Shown here: one piece after another, positions 2,973-34,813 of the stretch | How the letters are laid out: every line of letters starts with the position of its first letter | Position numbering within the stretch: the first letter of the stretch is position 1 | Assembly: GCA_020052615.1 (NCBI GenBank) | Contig: JAGVOT010000017.1 | Coordinates: 1 to 64,000, forward strand | DNA length: 64,000 nt | Direction: 5' to 3' | Source: Nitrospirota bacterium | Lineage (GTDB): Bacteria; Nitrospirota; UBA9217 | Translations under genes and position numbers: made by a program | Notes under the pieces: model-generated | Told to the model about the DNA's origin: nothing | Seen by the model: the letters and a program-made list of their open reading frames with translations, nothing else | The model's database searches: none

Positions 2973-4211
2973 TCAGAAGACCTTTTTTACCTCTGCGATG
3001 ATCCGGTTGTTGTGATAGTTGTCGATAAAGACGTCGTGCGAATAGCTGTCGGCATAACGGTAAATGATCGAATAGGTCAGGGTCTCGTTCGCGTTATAGT
3101 TGAACCGCACGTCCGTCAGGTAGACGATCGTCGTGGTATTGGGCTCCCCGACGGGATACCGCTGATATTTGTCGTTCGTGATGGAATACAGCCCCTGCAC
3201 CCGTTCGGTCAGATAGTGGCTGAATGACAGCATCACGGAGTATTTCCGTTCGTCGCTGTACTCTCCGATCCCGTATTCCCGGTATGAGAAGGATGCCCCC
3301 AGGGACGTTCTCTGAACATCCCTGCTGACGGCGAGGATATACCGGTCTTCCCTCCGTATGATCCTCAGCGCGTCGTCGATCCACGTCCTTCCGGTCTCAT
3401 ATCTCATCGAGACGCTCTGCGCACTGTAGAGAAGGCCGGCGTCCCATATCGGCCGCGTGGCCCTGTCAGCATCGTATCCGCTGAACTTGCTCGCCCCGAT
3501 CCTGCACCAGGCGTACGACAGGTCCTGATATTCCACGCGGGGGCCTATCAGGAACGTGCTGTGCGTGAAGTCGACCACATCGCTGTACGTCATGTCATGC
3601 CTTGCGGAGACCAGCAGGGTGACTCGCCCCGTGAGCTGGTGCGCAAGGTCGCCGTACCCGGAATGCTCGTGCTTATCGATGGCAAGGGGGTCCCCATACC
3701 ATACGTTCCGGTACTGGTATCCCGTGGTGAACTCCGTCCGGGAGGTCGGTCGGAACACCAGGTAGGGATTCACGATGAAGATGTTCTGCTTTGTCAGATA
3801 CTGGGAGGCATACGGACCGACCACGGCGTAATCCCGCGTGGAGAACAGCGATACCGTGCTGTAGTCGTCCCTGACATCGAGAAAAAAGAAGTCTTTGATG
3901 ATGCGCGTCCTGGACAGCAGGTTCAAGGTCTGCGTCGGGTCCTCGCGCGTGGTCTCCCGGGCATAGTAGCGGTAGTCATAGGAATAGAACACGTCCCAGT
4001 CCCAGAGCGGCGCAAAATACGTGGCGCGCACCGAAGGGACGATCCTGGTGATGTAGTCGAAGAGCTTGTTCTGGGGATGGAGCAGCACATTGTCGTTATA
4101 CTCCTCGCTCACCGTTATCGCCGGTTCGACCTTGACGTCCGACGCCCATGCTGCCGCCGCTGTTCCGACAGCGGTCAGGACGGCTACTATGAGGTAGGTT
4201 CGGCGGCGCAC
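2973..4211 (-). CDS. Outer-membrane beta-barrel protein, PEP-CTERM-system associated (TIGR03016-like)
   Basis: 412 residues. A signal peptide (MRRRTYLIVAVLTAVG...AWAS) precedes a mature chain rich in alternating Tyr/aromatic strands, such as YNDNV, FYSYDYRYY and MRYETGRTW. It ends in -KVF, an aromatic C-terminus typical of outer-membrane barrels. The sequence style and its place beside Wza/Wzz/kinase/ATPase match the uncharacterised barrel that accompanies PEP-CTERM exopolysaccharide loci, so a role in polymer passage across the outer membrane is likely. The start is GTG with no evident Shine-Dalgarno; no ATG lies between it and the upstream in-frame stop. It is 269 bp downstream of the NusG-like gene, on the same strand. 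Confidence 0.75.
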   Translation of the reverse strand: MRRRTYLIVAVLTAVGTAAAAWASDVKVEPAITVSEEYNDNVLLHPQNKLFDYITRIVPSVRATYFAPLWDWDVFYSYDYRYYARETTREDPTQTLNLLSRTRIIKDFFFLDVRDDYSTVSLFSTRDYAVVGPYASQYLTKQNIFIVNPYLVFRPTSRTEFTTGYQYRNVWYGDPLAIDKHEHSGYGDLAHQLTGRVTLLVSARHDMTYSDVVDFTHSTFLIGPRVEYQDLSYAWCRIGASKFSGYDADRATRPIWDAGLLYSAQSVSMRYETGRTWIDDALRIIRREDRYILAVSRDVQRTSLGASFSYREYGIGEYSDERKYSVMLSFSHYLTERVQGLYSITNDKYQRYPVGEPNTTTIVYLTDVRFNYNANETLTYSIIYRYADSYSHDVFIDNYHNNRIIAEVKKVF

Positions 4212-4480
4212 GGTGAGGTAACGGTCGGGACGGCGTATTCATTCCGGACTTACTAGGGCGTTGCTCAGATGACCATCCTGCCGGTATGCCGGGCACTGCT
4301 CCGCCCTCTCAGTCACATATTCCGACCGATAAGGTGTGACGCCGTCCGGCGTGCTGCAACGCGCTATCATTGCGTCGCTCGATCACGCCGGGACCGGAGC
4401 AGAATGATCGCCCCTTTCAGCCTCAGGGCCAAAGGTCCGGCGGTTCCGGCGATGGGACAGAAGCTTCCCGCCGGACAGGT

Positions 4481-33612: not shown

Positions 33613-34029
33613 CTAGCGCGGTGCCGCCGTACCCGCCGCGATCGACAGCCGCACGGTGACCGTTGTGATCGGTGTCACTCGGTCGCTGGAATAGATCGCC
33701 ACATGCTTCGCCAGATAGCCGGTCCGTCCCGTCGTATCCACCGAGATCTTGAGTTGGGTCGCTGCCCCTGGTTCCAGCCGGTTCGAACTGACCAGCCCAG
33801 CGGTGCACCCTCAGGTAGGCTGTACCCGCTGGATATCCAGGACCTCATCGCCGACGTTCTTGATCTCGAAGATATGCTCCGGCTGTGATCCCGGGCTGAC
33901 CGTCCCGAAATCGAAATTTGATTCCTTCACGTAGATCCGCGGCCCTTGCCGGTCTCCGGCAAATCCGGCGGATGCAATGGCCAGTGCGGCTATAGCCATC
34001 ATTAAGATACCTGTTTTTTTCATATTCAC
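33613..34029 (-). CDS. DUF1573-family exported protein, candidate selenoprotein (in-frame UGA = Sec)
   Basis: 138 residues if UGA at 33813-33811 is read as selenocysteine (residue 73). A signal peptide (ILMMAIAALAIASAGFA) precedes a DUF1573 domain: NFDFGTVSPGSQPEHIFEIKNVGDEVLDI (shown only as its parts NFDFGTV, HIFEIKNVGDEVLDI), then RVQPT-U-GCTAGL, then KISVDTTGRTGYLAKHV and VTVRLSIAAG before a TAG. Family members usually read PSCGCT here, so UGA replaces the first Cys of CGC. The frame continues unbroken with conserved family sequence for 65 codons after the UGA. Downstream RNA can form CUGG-GCUGGU / ACCGGC-(bulge)-CCAG with an 8-nt loop 20 nt after UGA, a bSECIS-like position. The start is GTG 34029 or ATG 34023 (GGGAG upstream). 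A simple nonsense mutation is the alternative. Confidence 0.75.
33768..33800 (-). promoter_or_regulatory. Candidate bacterial SECIS hairpin
   Basis: On the minus strand, CTGG (33800-33797) and GCTGGT (33796-33791) pair with ACCGGC (33782-33777) and CCAG (33771-33768), with a 5-nt bulge on the 3' side and the loop CAGTTCGA. The loop begins 20 nt after the UGA. The G in the loop is at the third rather than first or second position, so the match to the consensus is imperfect. Confidence 0.45.
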
Positions 34030-34117: not shown

Positions 34118-34813
34118 CTAAAGCCCCAGTTTCTTTTGTTCGATGAGCTTGACCAATTCGTCGCGGGTAAAGAACTCCTTCTCGATCAGGAGCGTCGTGA
34201 GGGCCTCGAGGACGATCTTCTGCGTGGCAAGGTCCTGGCGGATCGCCTGGACGTCGTGCTGAGGCTGGAACTGCTGGTTCCACTCCGTCGTGGAGATATC
34301 CGGCATTTCGCGCACAAGCTCCATCCGCGAGGCCTTTGACGCTGACTCCCGGAACGAAGCCTTGGTCTGCCGCGTAACAGGCTCTCCGTCATAGTACTTC
34401 CGTATGGCGTCCTTGATCTCAGATGCCATGGAGAGGACCGGCTTGATGGACAGGCCCGTGATGAAGCGGATGTTGTCCATCGTTTCGATGTCCATGGGGT
34501 CCGACATTGCGAGGACCAGCGAGTTGGCCTCCTTCCGCACCGGGACCACGCCGAACTTTTTCGCCATTTCGGCCTTCAGGACCTTGAAAATGTCCGGCGA
34601 CAGCTCCGGCTCGAAGAGGTTTATGTAGGGAACGCCCATCTTTTCGGAGATCACTCGGGCAATGTCCTCTTCACGGGCGAATTCCAGCTCCACGATGATG
34701 GACCCGAGCTTCCCTCCCCAGTTCCGCTGATGTGAAAGCGCCGCCTCGAGCTGGAAATCATCGATCAGCCCGGCGTCCTTCAACAGGTCACCCAGTTTTT
34801 TTCGCTCCGCCAT
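34118..34813 (-). CDS. Type II secretion/type IV pilus ATPase N-terminal-domain protein (GspE/PilB MshEN)
   Basis: 231 residues. Residues 5-150 match the MshEN/T2SSE N-terminal module (KLGDLLKDAGLIDDFQLEAA, FAREEDIARVISEKMGVPYI, MSDPMDIETMDNIRFITGL). This module binds c-di-GMP in some relatives. There is no ATPase domain; the C-terminal about 70 residues are helical (AIRQDLATQKIVLEALTTLL). It is a stand-alone module that may regulate a pilus or secretion motor or exopolysaccharide output. AAGGGGA precedes the ATG. Confidence 0.85.
   Translation of the reverse strand: MAERKKLGDLLKDAGLIDDFQLEAALSHQRNWGGKLGSIIVELEFAREEDIARVISEKMGVPYINLFEPELSPDIFKVLKAEMAKKFGVVPVRKEANSLVLAMSDPMDIETMDNIRFITGLSIKPVLSMASEIKDAIRKYYDGEPVTRQTKASFRESASKASRMELVREMPDISTTEWNQQFQPQHDVQAIRQDLATQKIVLEALTTLLIEKEFFTRDELVKLIEQKKLGL

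Follow-up and report, generated by a model that had tools for sequence, protein, structure and literature searches.

The DUF1573 gene on the reverse strand of the window (the whole stretch of Nitrospirota DNA analyzed, 64,000 nucleotides) is, on comparative sequence grounds, very probably a genuine selenoprotein gene and not a pseudogene. Translated with TGA as selenocysteine (U) from 34029 to 33613, it reads VNMKK...QRVQPT-U-GCTAGLVSS...GTAAPR up to the stop codon, with a single TGA followed by 65 sense codons to a TAG, as the preliminary description had stated. The product comprises 138 amino acids from a GTG start at 34029 or 136 from an ATG start at 34023. In a profile search, Pfam family PF07610 (DUF1573) matched residues 34 to 121 and thereby spanned the TGA (E value, 1.6e-19), and the score of 70.1 bits lies above the gathering score of 26.1. 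The gene and its surroundings contain the following features.

33613..34029, reverse strand: coding sequence of the Sec-DUF1573 protein, with TGA read as Sec and the stop codon TAG at 33615-33613
33811..33813, reverse strand: TGA codon for Sec73 of the U-G-C motif, kept in 13 of 13 gene-carrying family genomes and replaced by Cys in relatives lacking TGA
33805..33807, reverse strand: Cys75, second residue of the putative redox or metal motif UGC, invariant in the alignment
33777..33796, reverse strand: apical hairpin, putative bSECIS, with stem +15..+21/+28..+34 past the TGA and loop AGTTCG at +22..+27, based on covariation and on Sec versus Cys folding energies
33950..34023, reverse strand: probable N-terminal export signal (KK plus a hydrophobic stretch, ending near AGFAG), recognized by eye from the sequence
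34118..34813, reverse strand: upstream neighbor encoding an MshEN-domain protein (PF05157), conserved in the family by synteny, a housekeeping context

The in-frame UGA aligns with a Cys that is conserved in homologs. The U/C-G-C columns show no variation in an alignment of 16 TGA-containing members, and Cys relatives from the same phylum read CGC at the equivalent position. One set of Cys homologs was picked with a CGC-containing pattern, whereas the search that yielded these phylum relatives was free of such selection. The earlier placement of the UGA at the first Cys of a CGC motif is therefore borne out by both the alignment and the unselected relatives.

The family search covered 61 related genomes, including 14 from the window genome's own family. 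The DUF1573 gene was present in 13 of these 14 and was not found in the remaining one, a draft assembly of 74% completeness. All 13 copies, with protein identities of 43 to 80%, contain exactly one internal stop, which is always TGA and always at the same codon, and the frame ends 60 to 66 codons beyond it. The dN/dS ratio past the TGA was 0.08 to 0.36 in five pairs and exceeded the upstream value in only one of them. Neither TAA nor TAG was ever found at the Sec codon across the 13 family genomes and dozens of other Nitrospirota genera. The preliminary description had looked to close relatives for decayed genes, other stops, or a missing Cys; the relatives instead carry intact genes with the same single TGA. 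A pseudogene produced by nonsense mutation or assembly error, which a lone TGA interrupting an undamaged reading frame might suggest, was rejected as exceedingly improbable given the recurrence of the same TGA throughout these genomes and the purifying selection and preserved reading frame downstream of it.

The window genome encodes the complete machinery for Sec incorporation: selB with an adjoining selA, selD, and tRNA-Sec with anticodon UCA, the four components that the preliminary description had named for a genome search. The selD coding sequence (L043, G000:C59:21410-22333) is itself interrupted by one TGA and resembles Sec-containing SelD, which is a known type. Two different tRNA-Sec genes were identified in this genome.

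L001:1497-1595 (G000 contig C50), reverse strand: tRNA-Sec (UCA), 64.1 bits, common to the family
L002:1500-1594 (G000 contig C130), forward strand: tRNA-Sec (UCA), 52.9 bits, divergent

A tRNA-Sec above the cut-off was found in 13 of the 14 family genomes scanned, and none of the other family genomes contained a second copy above the cut-off. A read-through scan of the 64-kb window gave no convincing candidate for a second selenoprotein.

Genetic code reassignment or Sec-independent programmed read-through could instead insert a different residue at the UGA, and the frame would remain open under any such code. This alternative is highly improbable and was rejected. The code is not reassigned, because TGA terminates 18 of 54 long open reading frames in the window as an ordinary stop; the genome has complete Sec machinery, including tRNA-Sec; and TGA-containing DUF1573 genes are strongly associated with SelA across the phylum. 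A TGA lies within the DUF1573 match in 87 of 396 Nitrospirota genomes, and SelA was detected in 81 of these 87 versus 4 of 20 Cys-DUF1573 genomes, defined as those whose strong match lacks TGA (Fisher, 6e-11). The six TGA-DUF1573 genomes in which SelA was not found are all draft assemblies.

Bacterial SECIS elements consist of a hairpin directly downstream of the UGA, with a loop approximately 16 to 37 nt from it and a G among the first loop positions. The preliminary description placed a hairpin close downstream with its loop in this range, and such a structure was found: the loop begins 21 to 22 nt past the TGA, and six of seven positions pair, with one C-A mismatch. Its energy alone is unremarkable, as 19% of synonymous shuffles are equally stable. 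In the 13 family genes, positions +15 to +21 pair with +28 to +34 around an AGUUC loop starting at +22. The location of this stem-loop and its loop G agree with the SECIS rule given above. At pair 16/33, six of these genes have C-G and seven have G-C, a compensatory change, and pair 19/30 is formed by G-C or A-U with a single exception. The compensatory changes tie a first codon position to a later third codon position, and covariation over 82 Sec genes likewise supports the hairpin. Mean folding energy was −9.8 kcal/mol for these 82 genes versus −2.6 kcal/mol for 23 Cys genes, and mean z scores under synonymous shuffling were −2.5 and 0.0, respectively; the hairpin was absent from the 23 Cys relatives tested. 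The putative element is thus convincing only through comparison across relatives and not from the window alone. Guided by this hairpin, SelB and Sec-tRNA would decode the UGA as selenocysteine.

Sec-containing DUF1573 proteins appear to form a coherent group within Nitrospirota. In a tree with the Sec column masked, the 82 Sec rows grouped together with 93% bootstrap support. A wider tree of 88 Sec and 46 Cys rows gave two changes in a quick search, and a single Sec clade was not rejected (p-AU, 0.83). The pattern used to search genome contigs contained CGC and so retrieved Cys forms only, and the Sec survey covered Nitrospirota. Among 88 Sec-DUF1573 proteins inspected, 76 have UGC, eight have UxxC, and four have lost the second Cys. 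The UxxC variants (L213, L214, and L215, at about 4001-4340, and L250-L252, L254, and L255) read URRC, URAC, UKRC, or UKAC. One further gene (L203, G331:C31) has two in-frame TGAs, one at UGC and another, in the context NAUDKE, 13 codons before it; the additional TGA is either a second Sec or an error.

DUF1573 (pfam07610) with a UxC motif was listed as selenoprotein OS_HP2, with two GOS sequences (PMC2398784, 2008). DUF1573 is listed as a UGC selenoprotein in two reviews (PMC9312934, 2022; PMC13188914, 2026), the former crediting Zhang and Gladyshev 2007. OS_HP2, represented by NCBIfam NF041425 (OS_HP2_seleno), shares with the window protein the Pfam domain and Sec in place of the leading Cys of CGC; OS_HP2 proteins are listed from the deltaproteobacterial symbiont of Olavius algarvensis and from marine metagenomes, whereas the window protein is from Nitrospirota. 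The window protein scored 68.6 bits against NF041425, below the curated cut-off of 100, as did nine tested Nitrospirota relatives (69.8 to 90.5 bits). It is therefore related to OS_HP2 and works in the same way, yet lies outside the named subfamily by the curated cut-off. Of the preliminary proposal of a new selenoprotein, the Sec is strongly supported and the protein is a divergent new member, but the family was already published and has its own NCBIfam entry. Literature searches combining DUF1573 with cytochrome, or Nitrospirota with selenoprotein, returned no paper describing these findings, and we encountered no previous account of how widely the Sec form occurs in Nitrospirota, of the cytochrome c fusions described below, or of the UxxC variant.

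The window protein was modeled with a pLDDT of 86.5 (domain blocks mostly 93 to 98) as an Ig/PapD-like sandwich, in which residues 73 to 75 occupy the loop joining strands 64-71 and 76-80. The nearest solved structures are 2qsv from Porphyromonas gingivalis, of unknown function (Foldseek E value, 3.2e-8), and HYDIN/ASH domains; the likeness to these and to VesB Ig-like domains is one of fold, with remote sequence similarity. The product of 136 to 138 residues would be exported to the periplasm, where it is predicted to fold as a beta-sandwich presenting Sec73-Gly74-Cys75 in an inter-strand loop.

Two CXXCH motifs occur in a C-terminal extension of 29 UGC-type Sec-DUF1573 proteins from 26 genomes (L156, L157, L160, L175, L229, L235, and 23 others), which belong to several lineages of the phylum. 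The same fused architecture occurs in a Cys relative, in which Pfam identifies the extension as Cytochrome_CBB3; an AlphaFold model of a fused Cys relative, built from two sequences, had a pLDDT of 47.8 and was too poor to position the motif near heme. A Cys-DUF1573 protein fused to cytochrome c from Nitrospirae bacterium nzgw272 (L053) shares domain, motif position, and phylum with the window protein but has Cys in place of Sec and the two-CXXCH domain. The window gene is the short form without this fusion, and, unlike the Cys-DUF1573 genes tested, it has the hairpin. No cytochrome was identified among its neighbors. Neighboring genes in the family encode the MshEN protein, a PP-loop ATPase, ribonucleotide reductase, SerA, PurA, and a beta-lactamase-like protein; being housekeeping or unrelated, they were rejected as a clue to function.

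Redox chemistry is the most likely role of the UGC site, although its chances are only about even. Sec73 and Cys75 may form a selenenylsulfide that cycles reversibly between thiol/selenol and oxidized states and could transfer electrons to and from partners in the periplasm, which are probably c-type cytochromes. The cytochrome fusion hints at electron handling outside the cell membrane. Given the many relatives in which DUF1573 and a cytochrome c domain share one polypeptide, a c-type cytochrome would probably be the partner in the window organism also.

The main rival retains the selenoprotein but assigns its UGC site to the binding or delivery of a soft metal (Cu, Hg, or Fe) instead of a role as a redox couple. 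A CxC motif with one selenol is a good ligand pair for soft metals, and in all three UxxC loci read (L213-L215) the gene adjoins NosD-, NosF-, and NosY-like genes, with NosL-like genes in L213, a setting of copper-enzyme maturation; these clusters were named from sequences rather than by profile search. They belong, however, to a different subclade and are not orthologs of the window locus. Moreover, the cytochrome c fusion favors electron transfer, and the 16-member TGA alignment contains no conserved His or additional Cys near the motif. Metal binding is accordingly considered rather unlikely.

Returning to the redox interpretation, it is tentatively proposed, as a possibility that may well prove wrong, that a Nitrospirota-wide periplasmic electron-transfer system has Sec-DUF1573 as its redox head. 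It would comprise one Sec-bearing subfamily, for which a single origin was not rejected, whose Sec-Gly-Cys loop exchanges electrons with c-type heme; the heme would be carried by the same polypeptide in some lineages and by a separate cytochrome in the window lineage. If true, this would represent a class of heme-coupled selenoproteins for which no earlier report was found. The DUF1573 selenoprotein family, represented by a few marine sequences in the sources read, now includes Sec genes across a whole phylum. Standard gene callers end the gene at the UGA and thereby miss the motif, leaving a conserved periplasmic protein prone to misannotation in 87 of the 396 phylum genomes sampled. Concrete leads on the possible role of DUF1573 selenoproteins come from the fusions to cytochrome c and from the UxxC variants beside nosDFY-like genes.
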